Shown here: positions 1 through 11,731 of the stretch, one piece after another
How the letters are laid out: each line of letters starts with the position of its first letter
Position numbering within the stretch: the stretch's first letter is position 1
Assembly: GCA_018831195.1 (NCBI GenBank)
Contig: JAHJDP010000093.1
Span: 1 to 52,179 of the forward strand
Length of the DNA: 52,179 nucleotides
Direction: 5' to 3'
Source of the DNA: Candidatus Eisenbacteria bacterium
GTDB taxonomy: Bacteria; Eisenbacteria; RBG-16-71-46; CAIMUX01; JAHJDP01
Notes under the pieces: model-generated
Databases searched by the model: none
What the model saw: only the letters and a program-made list of their open reading frames with translations
What the model was told of the DNA's origin: nothing
Translations under genes and position numbers: made by a program

Positions 1-1000
1 TGAGATCATGACAGTGGGTGCAGTCGGTCGAGAATCCGGCCGCCGTATGATCGGGGTCGGATGCTTCCGCATAGTCGGTTTCATGGCAGGTATAACATTC
101 AGTGGGCGTTCCCGCGTAGACGCCGCCCCCATGGCACTGAGCGCAGGACGCCGCGGCATGTCCGCCGGAGAGATCAAAGAAGGCGTGATTGAATTCTCCG
201 TTTTCCCAGTTTGTGGGGTCATGGCAGATGCGACAATCAGTAGGGAAGCCTGCCTCAGCGTGATCCGGTTCTTCCGTATTTTCATAATCCGTATGATGGC
301 AGGCAATGCAGGTGTTCGATATCCCTTCATAAACGCCATTCAGATGGCACTCGGCGCAGGTCGGGGAGGCATGGCCGCCGGAGAGATCGAAGAAGGAATG
401 ATCGAAGGCGCCGTTGTCCCATCTGCTGAGATCATGACAGTGGGTGCAGTCGGTTGAGAATCCGGCCGCCGCATGATCGGGATCGGATGTTTCTTCGTAG
501 TCGGCCTCATGGCAGGTATAACATTCAGTGGGCGTTCCCTCGTAGAGGCCGCCCCCATGACACTGAGCGCAGGACGCCGCGGCATGGCCGCCGGAGAGAT
601 CGAAAAAGGAATGGTCGAAGGCGCCGTTGTCCCATCGGGTCGGGTCGTGACAAATTGTACAATGGGTGGGAAATCCGGCGGCCGCGTGATCGGGGTCGGA
701 TGTTCCTTCGTAGTCGGCCTGATGGCAGGCATAGCATTCATCCGGCATACCCTCATAAATTCCAGCGGAATGACACTGAGCGCAGGTGGGGGCGGCATGT
801 CCCCCTGATAGATCAAAGAAGGAGTGATCAAATACGGCGCTCGCCCACTCCGATGGAGTATGACATTCCGAGCAATCGTGAGGAAATCCGGCCTTGCCGT
901 GATCCGGATCGCCTGTGGCGTCGTACTCAGCAAGATGGCAGGCCTCACAGTCGACAGGTGTCAGCACATAATTGAGTTCTTCGCCGCCGGGGCTGCCGTG
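1..1000 (-). repeat. Tandem 71-residue triheme repeat array (213-nt period)
   Basis: Heme-motif His codons recur exactly every 213 nt (ending at 10, 223, 436, 649 and 862). Each unit reads CAxCH, 16 residues, CYxCH, 25 residues, CTxCH, 30 residues, with shared words SDPDHAAAGFPT, WDNGAFDHSFF and DLSGGHA. The outermost unit at ~1000 has five extra residues. At DNA level a 426-nt (two-unit) period is strongest: nucleotides 1-60 and 427-486 differ at only three positions. The array runs off the left edge, so its full copy number is unknown. Confidence 0.93.
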
Positions 1001-2548
1001 ACAGGCGTCACAGGCTACGGTTGTATGAGCTCCGGTCAGAGGAAAACGCGTCTCGCGATGAGCGCGCGCGAAGGTGGACGGATCCTGGAATCCCCGTGAC
1101 GAGTGGCATAGGGCGCAAGCGGTACCGAATTCGCCTCGATGAACATCCTGATGACAGCTGACGCAGGCCAGGTCGCCCTGGAAAAGATCCTTCGATGAAT
1201 GGCAGGTGGCGCACTCCAGGTCTGCATGGGCTCCCTCAAGAGCAAAACCAGTGGCCTCGGCATGATCGAACCGGGCAACGGGATGAAAACGATCGGCGCC
1301 GTGACATTGAGAGCAATCGGATGAGAAACGCCCGCCATGTTGATCCTCATGGCAGTCTGAACAGCTTGCATGCGTTTTGGCAAAAAGAAGCGACGGGGGC
1401 GGGTCACTCTCATTATGGAGGGTCGTGGCCAGCCGGGGCAGCCGCAGTTCGGTATGGCAGTCAAAGCATGGCAAGGCCTGGTGGGCGCCAACAAGCGGGA
1501 AAGGGAAGGTCGCATGCAGCATGGCATCAATCCGGGCCGGCCGGAAAGCTGTGAAGCTGTGGCAGATTGTACAATCCTTCTTATCCAACGGCGTATTAAA
1601 CCGATCACCGTGAGGATTGATATGACAATTAACGCAGGTGGTCTCCAAACCGAGGAATGTTTCACCCGCCTCAACCGTCGGCCGGAGCTTCATCACGGGT
1701 GAACGCCTGAAATTATCCCGATGGCATGCCGTGCATTCCAGCTCAGAATGCCTGCCTTGAAATTCCCACCCGGTGTCGGAATGATCAAAGGCGCCAGGGT
1801 CAACAAAATCAGGATCAATAAGGAGCGCATCACGGCCCTCATGCTCGGTATGGCAGGCCGCACACCCTTCGGAGTATTCGGCGTGGAATCCCCGTTCCGC
1901 CTTGATCAGATGGTCTATGCCCTGATGACAAGCGAGGCAGGCCTGTTCGATGGAAGCGCCTTCGCTATGGCAGTTCCTGCAATCAAGATGGGCATGGGTG
2001 GCGGAGATCAAGCCAGGAGAAATCTCATCTTCGGCATGACAGGCCGTGCAACGATTTTCGAGTCCGAGGAAAGAGCCATCGGGTGATGATCCCGGTTCCA
2101 TATTCAAAACGGGAGAGACTTGGTGCTGATCTTGATGGCAATCGGAACACGACAGATCGGCATGCGTTTCGCCGAGCGGCCATCCTGTATCGTTGTGATC
2201 AAAGCCCTTTGGGTCGACAAGATCGGGATCGATCAAGCGAGCATCTGGGCCTTCATGCTCGACATGGCACCCACCACACCCTTCGGAGTATTCGGCGTGA
2301 AATCCCCGTTGTTGGGCGATGAGCCAGGCGATGCCATCGTGGCATGTTAAACAGGATTCATCCTGCGAAGCCTCATCATCACTGGGATTATTGCCGTGGC
2401 AAATATCACAGCTTCCCGAATCATCCAGGAATTCGTGGGTTGAAGAGAGGGGGCCGGGAGACTGGGTGAATGCGCCGGCGGCGATCAAGAGAAGGAGAAG
2501 GGCAATGGCGCTCGAAATGAATGTCTTGGACCGGACGCAATGAGGCAT
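1..2548 (-). CDS. Giant secreted multiheme c-type cytochrome (3' end outside window)
   Basis: The frame is open from an ATG at 2548 to the window edge (849 codons, no stop), so the C-terminus is missing. An SD-like GGAGGGG lies upstream of the ATG. Residues 1-32 form a signal peptide (KTFISSAIALLLLLIAAGAF). I count 32 CXXCH covalent heme motifs, for example CDICH near 2398, CGGCH near 2266, CFDCH near 1456 and CTHCH near 436 and 10; all those checked share one frame. The N-terminal part holds two copies of a ~138-residue five-heme unit, the middle has seven hemes in c7-like FDH...GAH...CXXCH context, and the C-terminal part is a 71-residue three-heme array. Extra His residues (DPDH, FDH, GGH) could be distal ligands, giving bis-His hemes. 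The family is periplasmic or extracellular electron transfer. The exact partner is unknown. Very sure of the class. Confidence 0.95.
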   Translation of the reverse strand, partial: MPHCVRSKTFISSAIALLLLLIAAGAFTQSPGPLSSTHEFLDDSGSCDICHGNNPSDDEASQDESCLTCHDGIAWLIAQQRGFHAEYSEGCGGCHVEHEGPDARLIDPDLVDPKGFDHNDTGWPLGETHADLSCSDCHQDQHQVSPVLNMEPGSSPDGSFLGLENRCTACHAEDEISPGLISATHAHLDCRNCHSEGASIEQACLACHQGIDHLIKAERGFHAEYSEGCAACHTEHEGRDALLIDPDFVDPGAFDHSDTGWEFQGRHSELECTACHRDNFRRSPVMKLRPTVEAGETFLGLETTCVNCHINPHGDRFNTPLDKKDCTICHSFTAFRPARIDAMLHATFPFPLVGAHQALPCFDCHTELRLPRLATTLHNESDPPPSLLFAKTHASCSDCHEDQHGGRFSSDCSQCHGADRFHPVARFDHAEATGFALEGAHADLECATCHSSKDLFQGDLACVSCHQDVHRGEFGTACALCHSSRGFQDPSTFARAHRETRFPLTGAHTTVACDACHGSPGGEELNYVLTPVDCEACHLAEYDATGDPDHGKAGFPHDCSECHTPSEWASAVFDHSFFDLSGGHAAPTCAQCHSAGIYEGMPDECYACHQADYEGTSDPDHAAAGFPTHCTICHDPTRWDNGAFDHSFFDLSGGHAAASCAQCHGGGLYEGTPTECYTCHEADYEETSDPDHAAAGFSTDCTHCHDLSRWDNGAFDHSFFDLSGGHASPTCAECHLNGVYEGISNTCIACHHTDYENTEEPDHAEAGFPTDCRICHDPTNWENGEFNHAFFDLSGGHAAASCAQCHGGGVYAGTPTECYTCHETDYAEASDPDHTAAGFSTDCTHCHDL
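1620..2400 (-). repeat. Duplicated ~138-residue pentaheme unit in the cytochrome N-terminus
   Basis: Two successive segments carry five CXXCH motifs each, at about 2398-2038 and 1969-1624. They share the words RGFHAEYSEGC and ACHTEHEG (copy 1: GCHVEHEG), LIDPD and FDH.DTGW. The third motif of each copy is 414 nt apart (2266 and 1852). The copies are more diverged than the triheme array, so this duplication looks older. Confidence 0.85.
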
Positions 2549-2728
2549 CAACGCGAGATCCCCTCCATCTCTCCCCAATGAGGATATCAGTTCGTCTTTG
2601 GACTCGACCGCGAAATTAAACAGCACTCCAATATTATGATTTCCACCGGATAAATGCTAGAGGTTTGGGCTCTTCAAAATTCCTTGAAGCTGCCGATAAC
2701 CTGATCCGGGAGCCATGGAGGAAGATCG

Positions 2729-4442
2729 ATGCGTGTGCGAATCCATTCGGAATTCTGCGGATTTCTTATGCTGGTTCTTGCAATTTGCGGCCTCCATTTC
2801 TCTGCGGCCCGGGCTGAGAGCTATGACGTCGGACCTGGTTTCGCGTATGAAAATATCGGGGATGTCGCGTGGGAAACCCTGGATCCTGGAGACAGCGTCC
2901 GGATCCATTATCGCGAAACGCATTACCACGAAAAGTGGGGTGATCTGCCGCCAAGGGACTTCAGAAGCTCCTATTGTGGTTCAAGGCATCCCTTCCCCGG
3001 GCGGCGATTTGCCCGTGATCAATGGCATGGACGCCACCACAAGATCGGAACTGAACTTCTGGAATGAGGAACGCGGCGTTCTCAAGATCGGCGGCGCGAA
3101 TCAGCCACCCGATACAACACCCGCCTATATCATTATCGAAAATCTGGAAATCCGTAGCGGCCGGCCGCCGTTCTCCTTCTCCGGCCGCTACGGGCTCACG
3201 AGCTATGTGAATAACTGTGCGGCGATTTATATTGAAAAGGGTGAGCACGTCCAGATCCGCAATTGTACATTATGGGACTGCGGCAACGGCCTTTTCTGTG
3301 GACATCTCATGACGGACCTCGTTGTCGAGGGTAATACGGTCTATGGCAACGGGATTGAGGGCTCAATATATGAGCACAACAATTACACCGAGGCTTTTGG
3401 GGTTCTCTTTCAATTCAATCATTTCGGGCCGCTGCGAACAAATTGCCTCGGGAATAATTTAAAAGACAGATCGGCGGGCTGCGTCATTCGCTACAACTGG
3501 ATAGAGAGCGGAAACCGCCAGCTCGATTTGGTTGACAGCGATTACGCCTCTTTTTATGACGATCCGAGTTACCGCCAAACCTATGTCTATGGGAATATCC
3601 TGATCGAGCCGGATGGCGCGGGCAACAGCCAGATCCTGCATTATGGCGGTGATTCGGGCGCCACCGAACGCTACCGTAAAGGGACACTGTACCTGCACAA
3701 TAATACAATTGTATCAACGCGCAGCGGAAATACGACGCTCGCTCGCCTTTCGACAAACGATGAAAGATGTGATGCCCGCAACAACATCATCTATGTCGAA
3801 GCCGCCGGTTATTATCTGGCTATGCTGGCCGAAAGCGGCGGGTTGCTGGAACTGCGGGGCAATTGGATCAAACCGGGATGGGTCCTTTGCCACGGTTCGA
3901 CGCCTGGAGAAGTTGTGGATTATGGGAATGTCGAAGGCCAGGATCCCGGATTCATTGACTTCGCCGAGCAGTCCTTCGAGCTGCGGGATGGATCTGATGC
4001 CATCGACGCCGGGGTTGATCTCGCGGCAGAGATCGAGACGGATCACAGGCCCGTGATGGAGTATGTGAAACACGCTCTGTCCCGGCCGCGGCATGATGAT
4101 TCGATTCTCGATATCGGCGCCTATGAGTTTGCTTCCGATAGCAGTGTGGATGGCACCGGAGGGCTCATGGGGCTGGATCCCATCAAGGCCTATCCAAACC
4201 CCTTCAGCAACCGGCTGACGATCGAGGGATCGGCGACGTCACCCCTCGTGATGGTCGGTGTGGATGGGCGGATCGTATGGGAATCCGGCGGATATCATGC
4301 GGGCGCGGGAGAGGGGAACGCGGAATCCATGAATTGGGATTGGAACCCTCCAGCGGATCTGCGGGCCGGGATCTACTACCTTGGGATTCGGGGTTCCTCG
4401 CCGCGTGCCGGTCGGAAGGTGATCTATATCCCCGACCGCTAA
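2729..4442 (+). CDS. Secreted right-handed beta-helix protein with C-terminal sorting tail, frameshifted near 2937
   Basis: Translation should begin at the ATG at 2729, after GGAGGAAG, because this frame gives a signal peptide (FLMLVLAICGLHFSAARA). That frame reads on to YHEKW and then loses sense, while the frame one base over takes up VICRQGTSEAPIVVQG and continues to the stop at 4442. Removing one G from GGGG at 2937-2940 restores KWVICRQGT, the normal start of the parallel beta-helix region. The repaired protein is about 570 residues: short N-terminal domain, Asn/Ile-rich beta-helix coils (IEGNTVYGN, LHNNTI, ARNNIIY), then a tail with YPNPFSNRLTI and AGIYYLGI. Such proteins usually bind or cleave polysaccharide; no catalytic site is evident. 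The frameshift may be an assembly error or a real mutation. It is divergent from the cytochrome. Confidence 0.85.
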
Positions 4443-4538: not shown

Positions 4539-4580
4539 CTCAACATAACTTGACTGATGGCACTGTCCAGGAGGTTCTAT

Positions 4581-5252
4581 ATGTCGAAATACCAAAGCAT
4601 TATCCTGGTTCTGGTCCTGTTCCTTGTATCGCTTCCCGTGGCCGTAGCCATGGCCATCGTACATGAGGTCCAGGTCGCGAACTTCGCATTCAGCCCGGCT
4701 GACCTTACGATCGCCGATGGCGACACGGTCAGATGGAGTTGGGTAAGTGGAACCCACACAACGACATCCGGAGATCCAACAAGCTGTACACCGGATGGAC
4801 TCTGGAATGCACCCCTTTCTGTATCGAATACATTCTTTGAGTTTGATTTCACCGGAATGGGAGGGACGGCCTCGACCTACTTTTGCATGCCCCATTGCCT
4901 CGGCGGGATGAGGGGGTCTGTGACGGTCCAGGATGTGGCGGGAGTTTCGGGACATGGAGGTCCCGGGAATTTTGCCGGTCTTTCAGAGCTTCATGCCTCA
5001 CCCAATCCCTTCAATCCGGACACGGTCGTGCGATTTATCCTGGCTCAGGCCGATCATGTCCAACTGCGGGTCTTTGACGCAACCGGACGCCAAATCGTTT
5101 TGCTTGCCGATGAGACAATGCAACCCGGCTCTTACAACATTCCATGGGATGGACGTTCGGCCCAGGGACGGAAGGTTCCCAGCGGGATCTATTACATCAG
5201 TGGTAAAACCTCCAAAGGACGCTCCATAGCACCGATGGCCCTCATTCGGTAA
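4581..5252 (+). CDS. Secreted plastocyanin-like cupredoxin with C-terminal sorting tail
   Basis: Start chosen at 4581 because AGGAGG lies six bases before it; an in-frame ATG at 4557 has no such site. The 223-residue product has a signal peptide (IILVLVLFLVSLPVAVAMA), a cupredoxin domain (about 28-117) and a sorting tail (about 135-223; SPNPFNPDTVVRF, SGIYYIS). Type 1 copper ligands are visible: His59 in GTHTTTSG, then Cys102, His105 and Met110 in YFCMPHCLGGM, the spacing of plastocyanin. Blue-copper proteins of this kind shuttle single electrons. The tail suggests surface or extracellular placement rather than a free periplasmic carrier. The neighbouring giant cytochrome makes a shared electron-transfer role possible, but that is inference. 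A hairpin follows the gene. Confidence 0.9.
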   Translation: MSKYQSIILVLVLFLVSLPVAVAMAIVHEVQVANFAFSPADLTIADGDTVRWSWVSGTHTTTSGDPTSCTPDGLWNAPLSVSNTFFEFDFTGMGGTASTYFCMPHCLGGMRGSVTVQDVAGVSGHGGPGNFAGLSELHASPNPFNPDTVVRFILAQADHVQLRVFDATGRQIVLLADETMQPGSYNIPWDGRSAQGRKVPSGIYYISGKTSKGRSIAPMALIR

Positions 5253-5507: not shown

Positions 5508-7238
5508 TCAACGGATGAGCAGCATTTTGTTTGTTGACGTGAAGTCGCCGGCTTCGAGATTGATAAAATAAATACCGCTGGTGACAGGATGTCCATAATC
5601 ATCCGTGGCATTCCAGCGCACCGTGCGAGATCCCGGCCCCTGTCGCTCATCGGTCAAAGTGGCGACTTTCTGCCCCCGGATGTTATAGATTCCCAGTCGT
5701 ACCTGCGAAATGGCGGGTAGATCATATTTGATAAATGTCTGGGCCGCGAAGGGGTTGGGGTGGTTCTGGTGGAGATGGAACAGAACGGGCGAAAACTCGC
5801 CGTCTTCAACCCCTGAAGAGCCGGAAACATGGATGACTACAGGAATTTCAAGATAACCTTCATCCGAATCATTATTGGTAATTTGAAGTGTTGAGTAATC
5901 CGTTGTCGCAACACCGCCCGATGTGTATGTGATGGAGACAATATCATAAGATTCAGGAGCCAAATTCAATTCGGTTGTATCCAAACCAAAGTCACTGTTT
6001 GTTGATGTCATGGCTGTGACCACCAACGCATTGTTACCGGTGTTGATAACGGCAAACGAAAACTGAGTCTCCGTGTCGAGTGCAATCGTTCCCATATCAA
6101 TCGCCGAGGGCGCCACGGCGATTTCCGGATTTAATGCCATCGTTCCCGATCCCCAAAAGGCGCAGATTCGATCGACCAATTCGGGATGATCAATATACGG
6201 ATTGCGATTGTGCTGCAGGTCATAGATATCCTCATTCCTCTGCAACTCGCGGCTGTCCACCGGATCGGACAGGTGCCAGATGCGGAGAATCTCCTCGAGT
6301 TTCTCCGGATCCTCATAAGAATCGCAGGCTTCAATCTGGGCCGGCGTATAGCGTGTTGTGTAATAGAAATGCGTCCGCGCGACATTCCCCTTATGACTAT
6401 CCCGCGGTTCGAATACGACTTGCCCTTCAGAATCGGTGCCCCGCTTCGATCCACCGACACTCCAAGTCGGAGTCACAACGATGCCGAAATCATAATTGTC
6501 CCGGATACTGTTCGCCGTGACATCCGTCGGATAAAGATGGAAAATATCGGACCTCATCGGCTCGTTTTCACAAAAGAAACTTTGCGGCCAAGTATGTTCA
6601 CAATTGAAGCTGTTCTCGTTGGCTCCCGTTCGCGTATTGAAGCAGGCGATCCTGCCGGTATAGACGCATTCCACACAACCCAAGGTGGGGCACTCACTAC
6701 ATGTGTCGTCATTGTCAATGTGGCCGTACATATGATCCCGTGCCGCCGTATAGCCGAGCGAGGTATGGTTATCAATAATGTCACGCAAGGCGAGTTTCAA
6801 ATCCTCGCACCAGAGATTTTGCGTTCCATCGTAGTATGAATCTGGATAGTGGGCTTCAGCCGTCACATGGGCGATCAGTGGATCTAATCCGTCACTTAAT
6901 TCGACGCGCAGAAAGTCTTCGTAATCAATATTGTGCAGGGGGTCACAGTAAATATTAAAAACCAGCTCGCCATTGGCGGGAATCAATGACCCCTGGAGGT
7001 CGGTATAGAAGGCATCCTCTTCGAAGATTCCGGTGGCGAGAATCGGCACCGAGAGCATGTTGCTGAGCGTGATGGGGATTGAAGAGGCGCTGCCCGTTAA
7101 AATGATACCAAAATCGGGATTTGCGTCGGAAAGCAAAGCCCCGGGTTCGCGACCCGATCCGCCCATTACCGATCCGGCGGAAAGAGATATCAGCAGCAGG
7201 ACCGCCAGGACACAACGTCTCGCGATGACTTTTCTCAA
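5508..7238 (-). CDS. Secreted endonuclease I family nuclease with sorting tail
   Basis: The start is TTG at 7238, with GAGGGGG seven bases upstream. The 576-residue product has a signal peptide (1-26), an N-terminal Ig-like (ASH-type) segment (about 38-128), an endonuclease I domain (about 140-350), a second Ig-like segment (about 368-455) and a sorting tail (HPNPFAAQTFIKY ... SGIYFINL). The nuclease signature is clear: EHTWPQSFF at 214-222, then RSDIFHLYPTD and ANSIRDNYDFG. EndA/NucM-type enzymes cut DNA and RNA with a metal at the EHxWPQS histidine. Odd: a Cys-rich insert (Cys180, 183, 188, 191) precedes the catalytic motif. Likely an extracellular nuclease for scavenging nucleic acids. Confidence 0.92.
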   Translation of the reverse strand: MRKVIARRCVLAVLLLISLSAGSVMGGSGREPGALLSDANPDFGIILTGSASSIPITLSNMLSVPILATGIFEEDAFYTDLQGSLIPANGELVFNIYCDPLHNIDYEDFLRVELSDGLDPLIAHVTAEAHYPDSYYDGTQNLWCEDLKLALRDIIDNHTSLGYTAARDHMYGHIDNDDTCSECPTLGCVECVYTGRIACFNTRTGANENSFNCEHTWPQSFFCENEPMRSDIFHLYPTDVTANSIRDNYDFGIVVTPTWSVGGSKRGTDSEGQVVFEPRDSHKGNVARTHFYYTTRYTPAQIEACDSYEDPEKLEEILRIWHLSDPVDSRELQRNEDIYDLQHNRNPYIDHPELVDRICAFWGSGTMALNPEIAVAPSAIDMGTIALDTETQFSFAVINTGNNALVVTAMTSTNSDFGLDTTELNLAPESYDIVSITYTSGGVATTDYSTLQITNNDSDEGYLEIPVVIHVSGSSGVEDGEFSPVLFHLHQNHPNPFAAQTFIKYDLPAISQVRLGIYNIRGQKVATLTDERQGPGSRTVRWNATDDYGHPVTSGIYFINLEAGDFTSTNKMLLIR

Positions 7239-7484: not shown

Positions 7485-10343
7485 ATGAAACCCAAGAGCG
7501 GGAAAAGCCACATTCTTTTCATGATGTTGTGGATGGCTCTCCTGCTGACGCCTTCCTGGGGCGCTGATGATCCGGGAATGGTTTTCACTGAGATCATGTA
7601 TCATCCGCCTGATGATGGAGAAAAACTCGAGTATATCGAGATACAGAACCTCGCATCAGACCGCCGCGATCTATCCCGCTGGCAAATCCAGGGGGGGATA
7701 CAATATCAGTTCCCGGAGGGCACCGTCATTCCAGGGCATGGATTTCTTGTGATTTGCCGGGATGTAGAGACGTTTCGCCGGGTTTATGAATGTGAGGCGT
7801 CCTTCATCGGCGGATTCAAGGGTCGATTAAACAACAGCGGAGAAATGATTATTCTGTCAACGCCGGATGGCGCACCGGTTGATAGTGTTTTCTATTCAGA
7901 TCAATCTCCCTGGCCGATGGCGCCCGATGGATACGGATCTTCGCTGGAACGTATTTCCGTGAAGGATCCGGCATGCTCGCCGTACAACTGGCGTTCTTCG
8001 GAGACATCATGGGATGTGATCAAGCCCTCCGGTACACCTGGGTTGCCGAGTAAAAATTCAACCCGGTTTCTTCCTCCGATTATCTCAGACATTAAATGGA
8101 CTCCGGAGAGTCCCAAAATCGGAGAATCGATCCACGTTGAGGCGAATGTTTCCTTCAGAGAAAAACTGCAGAGTGTGGAGCTTCTCTATCGGATTTGCAC
8201 TCCGGGATCAATAGGCGAGGAGATGGCGATTTCAATGAGAAGCGCCTCAGCCGGCGATGTGGAATCGGTCCATCAAGGCGATATTCCCGGACAAGGAAAG
8301 GAGACTCTCATCCGTTTTCGAGTCCGCGCCGTTGTCAGCAAGGATGAGATGCGCATCGAACCCGATCCTACGGATCTTCGCCCATACCTTTCCTGCTATG
8401 TGGTTGGTGATACGGTGAGAACGGATATTCCCCGCGGTTTTTTGATGCATCTGGATGACGTCGATTTCAGAAGAGGACAAGAAAAGAGAAAGACTCGGAT
8501 TTGGAGCCGGGAACAAGCTTATCGGCATGCCCTTGGAGTCTGTTCGAGCGATGGTGTGGATCTGGAAGGCACCTGGATGCTCCTTTGCTTCACTGAAGAT
8601 CTCTCTCCGGATATATACGACAAGGCCATGAATCTCTTTGCGGAGATGTTCGCCCGGCGTGAGAAGGCTCTGGATCAAATCATACAGGCCCGTTATCCAG
8701 AGGTTGCTTTGAAGTCGTTTGCTGACTCAATAAACGACATCAAATCAGAATTTAAAATGAATATGGAAAGCAGCCTTTCCGTTGATCTTTGTCGTCGACT
8801 TGAACAAGCATATCTTGAGTCCAGAACAAGAGAAACGGTGAATCGGAGAGAGCCGAGATATATCAAAGACAAGCGGAGCCTGCTCGATTTGGAGGCCATG
8901 TGGTTCTATTTCACGGTTATTTGCCGTAAAGAACAATCGCAGATTGATGAGATGAAAGCTCTTTTTAAGAAAGCGGAAATGTCTCGCTCTGAAATCTTTC
9001 GGGAATTGCGGACCAAAGAGAATATTTGCGAAGATTGGTGGAGAGCCGCTGAAAGGGGTTTGGATTTAGAGCGATCCGTCATGAGATCCGTGAACGCCGC
9101 TTTAACTGAGGAGCAGGCGAAGGGGTCCATGAAATGGCTTGCCGATCATGCGCAATATGACGGAACTTCTATTCCAGCCCGACAAGATTCCCGGGCACGC
9201 GGGGATTGCGCCTTTATCTTTATTGAGCGAGGCGAAATGGCGGCGGCCGTATATGATTATATCGACGCCATTCCCCGGGGCGGCGGATATAAAATTAAAT
9301 TCCATCGCGATAAGCCTTTAAAAATAAGGATGAATAATTTTAGTGAAGATGAAGGCTACATCACAACCGCGAATTTGATCATAGATGCAAATCCAGGAGG
9401 AGCCATCTTTGAACCTATAAGCTTCGAGCTATATCGCCGGGCAAATATTCCTGCTCCATTGTCCCTCAATATCCGTTCGACGGTGGATTCAGAAAATATT
9501 GGATATGGTTACCTCGTCGAACAGCCCAATACGGGGTTTCTTATTAGAAACGGGTGGCGAAGGGGAGGAAATTTATACAAAAGCACATGGAATCCTTATG
9601 ATGTCGGGCATCGGTATGAGAAGAAGACGAATCTCCATGAAAACCAAGATGACATTCTCAATCTTGTGCAAAGGCTCGAAATCTCCGATGCAAAAACTCT
9701 TTGGAAGATGATGAGCGATGAATTCGATCCAGATGAGATCGCAAGATATTATGCCGTTAATTTCTGTTTGTCACATTGGGATGGTTACTTCAATAATTAC
9801 TTTATGTATAACGAACCGGGAGAGGAGGGACGCTGGCATTTGATTCCCTGGGATCCTGATCGGACCTGGGGTATTTTTGGATTGCGAAATGTCGCCGGAA
9901 GGTTTGCCGATATGCCGATGAGTTTCGGGGGAAAAGGAGATTTGCCGCCCGGGTTTGCAGCACTTCCATATTGGGGAGAAAAAGTATTCCGGGGACCGGG
10001 CGTCCCCGCATGGTGGCGGCCGCCTGGTGATATTTCCGGTCCGCTTCTGGCCAATGATGAATTTAGAAAATTAGTTATCGAATATTTGAGGGACATGCTA
10101 AAAAGTGAATTTTCGGAGGGCACACTGCAGCCTCTCCTGGCATCCCGTGAAGCCCTTATGAATGAAGAAGCTCTAGAATACAGTTTGAAAAGCGGCCGCG
10201 ATCCAGACTATGATCTCAAAGTCATTAAAAATCAATTTCAAGCCTTGAGGCAGTATATTATGGATCGTCGAACCTATCTCGAAAAGCATCTGGAAATGGA
10301 AACAGTTCGGCTAAGGACGGAGATGGGGGAGTCGGCCGAATGA
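7485..10343 (+). CDS. Secreted lamin-tail and CotH-like protein
   Basis: The 952-residue product has a signal peptide (1-26), a lamin-tail domain (about 29-165; FTEIMYHPP, LEYIEIQN, YGSSLERIS) and an Ig-like segment (about 190-290). A long, charged, mostly helical region follows (about 300-560), then a CotH-type domain (about 580-850). CotH features are visible: KIKFHRDKPLKIRMNNF, the HWDGYFNNYFMYN loop (His764) and IPWDPDRTWG with Asp790 and Asp792, likely metal/ATP residues of this atypical kinase fold. LTD-CotH fusions are common in secreted proteins of this kind of bacterium; their substrates are mostly unknown. No sorting tail is seen. Its stop overlaps the next start (ATGA), so the FAD oxidoreductase is translationally coupled. 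Confidence 0.85.
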   Translation: MKPKSGKSHILFMMLWMALLLTPSWGADDPGMVFTEIMYHPPDDGEKLEYIEIQNLASDRRDLSRWQIQGGIQYQFPEGTVIPGHGFLVICRDVETFRRVYECEASFIGGFKGRLNNSGEMIILSTPDGAPVDSVFYSDQSPWPMAPDGYGSSLERISVKDPACSPYNWRSSETSWDVIKPSGTPGLPSKNSTRFLPPIISDIKWTPESPKIGESIHVEANVSFREKLQSVELLYRICTPGSIGEEMAISMRSASAGDVESVHQGDIPGQGKETLIRFRVRAVVSKDEMRIEPDPTDLRPYLSCYVVGDTVRTDIPRGFLMHLDDVDFRRGQEKRKTRIWSREQAYRHALGVCSSDGVDLEGTWMLLCFTEDLSPDIYDKAMNLFAEMFARREKALDQIIQARYPEVALKSFADSINDIKSEFKMNMESSLSVDLCRRLEQAYLESRTRETVNRREPRYIKDKRSLLDLEAMWFYFTVICRKEQSQIDEMKALFKKAEMSRSEIFRELRTKENICEDWWRAAERGLDLERSVMRSVNAALTEEQAKGSMKWLADHAQYDGTSIPARQDSRARGDCAFIFIERGEMAAAVYDYIDAIPRGGGYKIKFHRDKPLKIRMNNFSEDEGYITTANLIIDANPGGAIFEPISFELYRRANIPAPLSLNIRSTVDSENIGYGYLVEQPNTGFLIRNGWRRGGNLYKSTWNPYDVGHRYEKKTNLHENQDDILNLVQRLEISDAKTLWKMMSDEFDPDEIARYYAVNFCLSHWDGYFNNYFMYNEPGEEGRWHLIPWDPDRTWGIFGLRNVAGRFADMPMSFGGKGDLPPGFAALPYWGEKVFRGPGVPAWWRPPGDISGPLLANDEFRKLVIEYLRDMLKSEFSEGTLQPLLASREALMNEEALEYSLKSGRDPDYDLKVIKNQFQALRQYIMDRRTYLEKHLEMETVRLRTEMGESAE

Positions 10344-11731
10344 GTTCTCCACTAAAAATCCTCGGCGGGGGCATGGCGGGGCTCTCCACCGGATATTTTG
10401 CCCAAAAATACGGAATCCCCTTTACTATCTACGAGGCCGACGAACAGGTCGGTGGAAATACAAAAACATTCCAACATGGTGATTTCCGATTTGATTCCGG
10501 GGCGCATCGCTTTCACGATAAAGATCCGCTGATGACGCGTGAGTTGAAGCTGCTGCTTGGCGATGACCTTACGGAAATTCACGCGCCTAGTCAGATTTAT
10601 CACAATGGACGCTTCATCAACTTCCCTCTGTCGCCACTGAATTTGATGTTTCGCCTGGGACCGGTGTCTTTTCTGGGGGGGGCTCTGGATGTGCTCAGAT
10701 CCAGATTGAAACAGTCCCATAAACACCAACATTTTGAATCATTCGCCGTTCAGACCTATGGCAAAGATATTGCTAAGAGATTTTTGCTGAACTACTCGGA
10801 GAAGCTTTGGGGTTCATCATGCGAGAATCTATCAATTGATATCGCCGGGAAACGTCTCAAAGGCCTTGATCTTCGCACTTTTCTTGTCGAGTCATTCATG
10901 GGCCGGTCGGCGGCCACACGGCATATGGAACGCGCCTCCTTCTACTACCCCCTGGGAGGTATCCAGTGTATTCCTGACCGGATGGCCGGAGTGTGTGATT
11001 CACGGAACATTCGATGCGGCGCGCGTGTGACCAAAGTATTCCATACCGAAACCCGGCTACAGGCCATGGAGCTAAATCATGCTGAGATTGTGGGGCTCGA
11101 CAGGAGTGAAGTGGTGTCCACCCTGCCCCTCCCCTCATTCATTCAGAGTCTGGATCCATCGCCGCCGGAGCCGCTGCTTGAAGCCGCACGGTCCCTGCGG
11201 TTCCGAAGCATGGTCCTCGTCACTCATCTTTTGACAAAGGAAAGCGTTACAAACAACGCCACGGTCTATTTTCCGGATTCCAACTTCCCCTTCACGAGAA
11301 TCTATGAGCCGCGCAACCGGGATCATTCTCTATCTCCGGTGGGATTTACCTCATTGGTCGCCGAGATTCCCTGCCAGCAGGGAGATGCTGTATGGGAGGC
11401 CGATCGAGATGAATTGATCGATCGCGTGAGAATCCATTTAATACGGATGGGGTGGATTCATGAGGGTGAAATCATGGATGCGACCATCAGAAGATTTTCA
11501 AACGCCTATCCGATCCTCGAGAGGGGATACGAAGAGAAGGTCTCAAGACTTAACGCCTATCTTTCTCGCTTTTCGAATCTTAAATCGGAGGGACGGAATG
11601 CGAAATTCGTCTATTCCTGGATCCACGATATGATGCGGTATGGCTTTGAGGTTGTTTCATCCTGTCATTCTGGAGTCTCGGGACAGATTTGTGAACCGGA
11701 GGTTTTGTCGGGTGAACAGATCCACAGCTGA
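10340..11731 (+). CDS. FAD-dependent oxidoreductase (amine oxidase / protoporphyrinogen oxidase-like)
   Basis: This 463-residue protein opens with a Rossmann dinucleotide site (LGGGMAGLSTGYFA) ending in an acidic strand (FTIYEAD), then GGNTKTF and FDSGAHRFH, the usual second FAD motif. The C-terminal YPILERGYEEKV and 'GRNAKFVY' segments match the FAD-closing part of amine-oxidase/HemY-like and UDP-galactopyranose-mutase-like proteins found in cell-surface polysaccharide clusters. The substrate is not evident. The start overlaps the CotH stop by 4 nt and GGGGGAG lies eight bases upstream. The next gene, a membrane glycosyltransferase, overlaps its end by 20 nt. A role in making or modifying a surface glycan is inference from context. 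Confidence 0.82.
   Translation: MSSPLKILGGGMAGLSTGYFAQKYGIPFTIYEADEQVGGNTKTFQHGDFRFDSGAHRFHDKDPLMTRELKLLLGDDLTEIHAPSQIYHNGRFINFPLSPLNLMFRLGPVSFLGGALDVLRSRLKQSHKHQHFESFAVQTYGKDIAKRFLLNYSEKLWGSSCENLSIDIAGKRLKGLDLRTFLVESFMGRSAATRHMERASFYYPLGGIQCIPDRMAGVCDSRNIRCGARVTKVFHTETRLQAMELNHAEIVGLDRSEVVSTLPLPSFIQSLDPSPPEPLLEAARSLRFRSMVLVTHLLTKESVTNNATVYFPDSNFPFTRIYEPRNRDHSLSPVGFTSLVAEIPCQQGDAVWEADRDELIDRVRIHLIRMGWIHEGEIMDATIRRFSNAYPILERGYEEKVSRLNAYLSRFSNLKSEGRNAKFVYSWIHDMMRYGFEVVSSCHSGVSGQICEPEVLSGEQIHS

Follow-up and report, generated by a model that had tools for sequence, protein, structure and literature searches.

The multiheme cytochrome gene at the beginning of the DNA stretch analyzed here (the window, 52,179 nucleotides, coinciding with the entire contig C93 of the source genome) combines, in a single open frame, parts of two cytochromes, hereafter A and B, which are encoded by adjacent separate genes in its relatives. 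We consider it probable that the gene is a natural fusion of both cytochromes of a PCC3-like conduit and that its product acts as a single-chain trans-envelope conduit, exported once and lying in or through an outer-membrane barrel. The sequence features behind this reading are the mosaic of A and B modules, the heme motifs, the conserved distal His residues, a barrel gene and the absence of the inner-membrane partner. This is the sole fusion seen among the 47 genomes searched of this poorly known phylum, and the unfused relatives tested keep the inner-membrane partner that is missing here. The PCC3-like organization is already known, and the new point is the fused A-B architecture; since published heme counts in PCC3 reach 85-86 (PMC5566968, PMC7096707), the heme number of the fusion is neither new nor a record. 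A fused periplasmic-extracellular cytochrome was not found in the literature searched, most subscription journals lying outside that search.

Cytochrome frame and heme motifs

The source genome (5.24 Mb, 123 contigs, 99.3% complete) carries, on the minus strand of contig C93, an ORF at 2..2626 (GTG start, 875 aa) that reaches the contig end without a stop. Since the window is the whole contig, the frame leaves the assembly and not merely the window. The likely start codon is the ATG at 2548, the end coordinate given originally, which would yield a signal peptide followed by the SPGPL motif conserved in the relatives. The original prediction described a giant multiheme cytochrome with 32 CXXCH motifs in one frame, open at the window edge, with one heme per about 27 residues, and all of this agrees with the exact count: 32 CXXCH motifs occur, all in the same frame, at one heme per 26.5-27 residues, with 0 CX3CH and 0 CX4CH, against a mean of 0.48 and a maximum of 3 motifs in residue shuffles. 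Only one Cys, near the N terminus, lies outside the CXXCH motifs, and the remaining five frames of the stretch contain 0 CXXCH and 14-55 stops.

In every 71-aa unit, the free His residues of FDH, GGH and PDH recur, three for three hemes. In the A proteins of the relatives, 20 of 20 CXXCH motifs and 20 further His residues are invariant across 15 sequences, as expected for bis-His hemes, so that the earlier remark on distal His candidates matching the hemes in number was right. An AlphaFold model of aa 331-875, built with 19 B relatives, was too poor for use (pLDDT 52, pTM 0.23).

The A-B mosaic

Profile searches with module HMMs placed the order Anterm-Anterm-Acterm-Bnterm inside one ORF of C93, while strong Anterm and Bnterm matches fall in separate ORFs at unfused loci with both genes resolved. 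A tblastn search of the source genome with the unfused A protein of the metagenome-assembled genome LQ108M_Bin_12 (L039; best segment 47% identical) returned residues 15-171, residues 28-179 again and residues 410-558, ordered and in one frame (Table 1). In terms of hemes, 1-5 of the fusion correspond to A 1-5, 6-10 to A 1-5 repeated, 11-14 to about A 14-18, and 15 onward to B; A hemes 6-13 are deleted, and B enters from its heme 2, its signal peptide being gone. From heme 15 on, the spacing is that of B, 16,16,35,21,25,(30,16,25)n, and since the step of 34 residues from heme 14 to heme 15 matches A h18-h19, the switch between A and B can be placed near aa 438-476. Alignments that included A fragments were misplaced by MAFFT and discarded.

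Table 1. Features of the fused cytochrome gene, its probable continuation and its upstream border (window positions unless another contig is named)
Feature	Position	Strand	Evidence
Probable Sec signal peptide MPHCVRSKTFISSAIALLLLLIAAGAFTQ, aa 27-55; mature protein from near SPGPL	2462..2548	-	Sequence; SPGPL/SPGAL kept in A proteins
A-type N-terminal 5-heme module, copy 1, hemes 1-5	2030..2455	-	HMM Anterm 125 bits; tblastn L039 A 15-171 at C93:2030-2503
A-type N-terminal 5-heme module, copy 2, hemes 6-10	1616..1996	-	HMM Anterm 117 bits; A 28-179 at C93:1592-2026; 51% identical to copy 1
A-type C-terminal part, A hemes about 14-18	1187..1498	-	HMM Acterm 92 bits; A 410-558 at C93:1193-1639
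A-to-B fusion junction, heme 14 to heme 15	1199..1315	-	Spacing 34 as A h18-h19, then 16,16,35,21,25 as B
B-type N-terminal module, hemes 15-20	854..1276	-	HMM Bnterm 165 bits; about 45-60% identity to relatives' B
B-type triheme repeats, 71 aa each, spacing 30-16-25, truncated by contig end	2..832	-	
Probable rest of B triheme array, C-terminal cap and stop	C32 right end, L004:7947-8903	-	318 aa, 13 CXXCH
Divergent beta-helix type secreted protein, upstream border of cytochrome gene	2715..4442	+	

The fusion thus consists of a 14-heme A-derived part and a B part of 31 or more hemes, counting those on contig C32, and tblastn with the L039 A protein found no separate A gene elsewhere in this 99.3% complete genome. 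Where A and B are unfused, their genes abut or overlap by a few bases, so that an in-frame fusion could arise by a deletion running through similar heme modules, a route that we infer. No second A-B fusion was found among the other genomes of the phylum (47 in total, 16 others having the cytochromes at the threshold used), nor in further phyla at the loci inspected after a search across 385 genomes, all 47 of the phylum among them. Two candidates were rejected. The 922-aa frame at L098:3954-6722 on the minus strand (G250:C45; 29 CXXCH) begins like A, has no strong or clear B module and no C-terminal cap, and is an extended variant; a 1659-aa frame in G341 was resolved into separate ORFs for A (20 hemes) and B (40 hemes).

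Probable continuation on contig C32 and the barrel gene

The right end of contig C32 is the sole other strong match to the cytochrome in the source genome, and the matching frame enters from the contig edge on the minus strand. Its tail is the conserved cap that terminates the B cytochrome in 16 relatives. Strand, order, family and uniqueness all agree, and we infer that the C93 and C32 pieces are one gene. With 32 hemes visible on C93 and 13 on C32, the total reaches 45, which bears out the suggestion that the true count exceeds 32; the visible peptide comes to about 127 kDa before hemes and gap are added. For the two contigs to join in phase, the gap must hold no fewer than 50 aa with two hemes, and every added unit brings another 71 aa with three hemes; if the repeat phase is kept over the gap, a total of 47 + 3n hemes (at least 47) is expected. 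An exact 114-bp repeat at the end of C32, belonging to that contig's own array, would explain the assembly break.

A few base pairs beyond the cytochrome stop, C32 carries an intact 535-aa frame with a terminal Phe, homologous to the protein following B in 14 relatives. The AlphaFold model obtained with 12 relatives (pLDDT 71) shows a small N-terminal domain followed by 22 strands, and Foldseek matched it to outer-membrane barrels, ushers and OprD types, so that the protein is predicted to be an outer-membrane beta-barrel of 22 strands. Neither the barrel nor the C93 cytochrome matched any PDB entry by phmmer. Compared with the 26 strands of MtrB, the 22 predicted here suggest that the barrel may be narrow for a heme chain.

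Relatives and their operon

Relatives were found in 17 other genomes of a first sample of 59, with A and B as adjacent genes wherever both were resolved. The complete operon reads inner-membrane protein (about 340 aa), flavoprotein with zinc-ribbon and 4Fe-4S domains, A, B and barrel, and the pairing of the B and barrel genes is kept across many genera. The A proteins have 20 hemes and a conserved SPGPL or SPGAL just past the signal peptide; the B proteins have 13-40 hemes, with signal peptides that, by eye, look like type I and devoid of a lipobox, which makes an extracellular B a prediction. The inner-membrane protein carries WX3HX13H twice together with SGXXG (di-heme-b type), as published for the inner-membrane protein of PCC3/PCC4 (PMC5566968).

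The same operon set, unfused, occurs on the Emticicia oligotrophica plasmid pEMTOL02 (L065:8643-20441), so that the system is not confined to one phylum; PCC3-like operons are shown in phyla beyond Proteobacteria. This replicon is annotated as a plasmid of a named Bacteroidota strain, a practical culture candidate. Plasmid searches for PCC3 relatives otherwise gave only smaller porin-less clusters, and the Methylophaga and Bradyrhizobium matches were set aside as such. In another phylum, a B-type cytochrome with a 1954-aa frame and 76 CXXCH lies downstream of a 23-heme A gene (L100:5845-11709, plus strand; G323:C3).

With a query from the same phylum, the inner-membrane protein was detected in 17 of 17 tested relatives that carry both cytochromes, the lowest identity being 31%, and in one of the seven other genomes tested; with the same query, it is absent from the source genome assembly, where the flavoprotein likewise has no full-length match. 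As other candidate electron inlets, the source genome has a 17-heme cytochrome accompanying an HmcB/HmcC-like pair, multihemes fused to cytochrome b, and a NapC/NrfH-like protein on contig C65.

Comparison with known systems

The closest likeness is to PCC3 of Sideroxydans, Leptothrix and Gallionellaceae (PMC5566968, PMC10734462), where a barrel, a cytochrome of roughly 20 hemes and a repeat-rich cytochrome of 10-85 hemes occur together; the low residue-per-heme ratio, the repeats and the double WX3HX13H and SGXXG signature of the relatives' inner-membrane protein are shared as well. Different from PCC3, A and B are fused here, A is shortened and partly duplicated, the source genome is without the inner-membrane partner, and the relatives of the fusion add a flavo/4Fe-4S protein, the comparison with Sideroxydans PCC3 being made by published description. 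Taking the features of PCC3 in turn, a barrel is encoded beside the multiheme cytochrome, conditional on the C93-C32 join, and the repeat-rich B part of 31 or more hemes is present, yet fused and without its own signal peptide; the separate cytochrome of about 20-27 hemes taken as periplasmic is found only as the fused and shortened 14-heme A part, and the inner-membrane protein with WX3HX13H twice and SGXXG is missing from the source genome. Because the last two are both lacking as such, we regard the fused system as a derived PCC3 variant, not PCC3 proper, that probably functions in a similar way.

The Emticicia operon comprises CcsA, an inner-membrane protein, an NAD(P)-binding protein, a 23-heme A, a 40-heme B and a barrel, homologous to the system described here; unlike the fusion, it keeps A and B as separate genes and has the inner-membrane protein. 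MtrCAB and MtoAB share the logic of a porin-embedded multiheme wire, but here there are 45 or more hemes per chain, no separate MtrC and 22 predicted strands against the 26 of MtrB. In Cyc2 (PMC8406198), too, conduit parts are joined in one chain, although Cyc2 is monoheme and its cytochrome is fused to the porin rather than to another cytochrome; no homology is claimed.

HmcA, OmcS and GSU1996 resemble the fusion in their multiheme c3/c7-like modules, but their architecture is different and includes no barrel-linked fusion. In profile searches, all matches were remote, including those to MtrA, OmcS and Hmc, and they are probably driven by CXXCH. The C93 cytochrome scored 48.2 bits with the MtrA/MtoA/DmsE decaheme family (TIGR03508; cut-off 192.2) and 21.9 bits with the HmcA hexadecaheme family (NF045713; cut-off 400), and the triheme nanowire domain TIGR04257 gave no match at E 1e-3. 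OmcS, OmcZ and GSU1996, originally suggested for comparison, are remote matches at best.

Proposed mechanism and alternative explanations

We propose that the fused chain would leave the cytoplasm in a single Sec export step, receive its c-type hemes with bis-His ligation, and be accommodated in or through the barrel with a periplasmic N terminus, like MtrA within MtrB, where the N terminus is periplasmic and the C terminus faces outward (PMC7198977); the threading through the barrel is suggested by this analogy. The A-then-B order would allow A to reach outward via the barrel and B to continue outside, with electrons hopping along one covalently continuous heme chain between the periplasm and the exterior, while another quinone-linked cytochrome might supply the N terminus. 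Electrons could flow out of the cell or into it. Regarding distances, the 20 hemes of MtrCAB span 185 Å (PMC7198977), and an 86-heme protein has been suggested to exit through its porin (review, PMC7096707). A stronger version, in which one polypeptide is a complete insulated wire from periplasm through barrel to the outside, replacing both subunits and rewired to another inner-membrane source, is held only tentatively and falls somewhat short of an even chance. The original view of a wire or capacitor at the cell surface stands in part: a surface-linked wire is probable and a capacitor role conceivable, but "cell surface" fits only the C-terminal part, the N-terminal part being the subunit taken as periplasmic in PCC3.

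The subunit arrangement of PCC3 around the outer membrane has so far been modelled, not measured, and no experimental localization of either subunit was found in the literature searched. The fusion offers an evolutionary hint that the C-terminal end of A adjoins the N-terminal end of B, in keeping with an orientation through the barrel like that of MtrA, and it supplies a topology open to testing, besides providing a ready-made single-chain conductor of 45 or more hemes.

It is unlikely, in our judgment, that the chain is a periplasm-only electron store or bridge, as a capacitor or as a link between inner and outer membranes, beside a barrel that is an ordinary porin. About 27 hemes would suffice to cross a 200-Å periplasm (PMC7096707), and the signal peptides of B, which look like type I without lipobox, leave its extracellular location a prediction, but 45 or more hemes surpass what the periplasm needs, the B-barrel pair is conserved across many genera, and the PCC3 models in print put B outside (PMC5566968, PMC10734462).

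A decaying remnant, in which partner loss, heme deletion and fusion mark a conduit turning into a pseudogene, appears quite improbable. At least 849 open codons, 32 CXXCH motifs and the distal His residues retained in each repeat argue against it, as do the intact barrel frame with its terminal Phe and the duplication of hemes 1-5, which partly restores the length, even though the inner-membrane and flavoprotein partners are absent and A hemes 6-13 were lost.

We give still less weight to the existence of two genes, the C93 fusion ending inside the gap and C32 carrying the end of a different B gene. The contigs do not overlap, the gap between them is not bridged by any sequence and lacks at least two hemes, and short contigs may have been lost; yet just one cut N-terminal and one cut C-terminal piece were found, at facing contig ends, on the same minus strand and with repeats 55-68% identical, and the order of cytochrome then barrel matches that of the relatives.

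Least probable of all is an assembly chimera of truly separate A and B genes stitched together through similar heme modules, for although the contig does break within repeats and C32 ends in an exact 114-bp repeat, the junction falls where the A and B proteins share only about 45% identity, the longest exact repeat in the C93 gene is 33 bp and lies within the triheme array, away from the junction, the two 5-heme copies are only 51% identical and hence not a read duplication, and no leftover A or second B N terminus was found elsewhere in the 99.3% complete genome.

Other cytochromes and neighboring genes

The source genome encodes a second giant cytochrome on contig C65 (G000:C65:53522-56635; L079:15523-18636, plus strand; 1037 aa, 42 CXXCH), whose DmsE/GSU2203-like and doubled-CXXCH matches exceed the cut-off; it belongs to a cluster, about 25 kb long, that contains multiheme cytochromes together with Hmc-like membrane parts. 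In the same genome, a decaheme DmsE-like cytochrome (L083:5302-8069, minus strand; G000:C42; 10 CXXCH; TIGR03508 145 bits, below cut-off) precedes a 524-aa protein that matches no family, and the two are a possible conduit of the MtrAB type.

In the window, the divergent gene bordering the cytochrome (Table 1) leaves no operon partners 5' of the fusion. Beyond it, and near the cytochrome gene, lies a plastocyanin-type copper protein with a C-terminal FlgD Ig-like domain (4557-5252), followed by an Endonuclease I-type nuclease with Ig-like and Por-secretion/FlgD-like C-terminal domains (5508-7238) and, at 7485-11731, by a CotH-kinase protein with a lamin tail domain and then an amino-oxidase-type flavoprotein.
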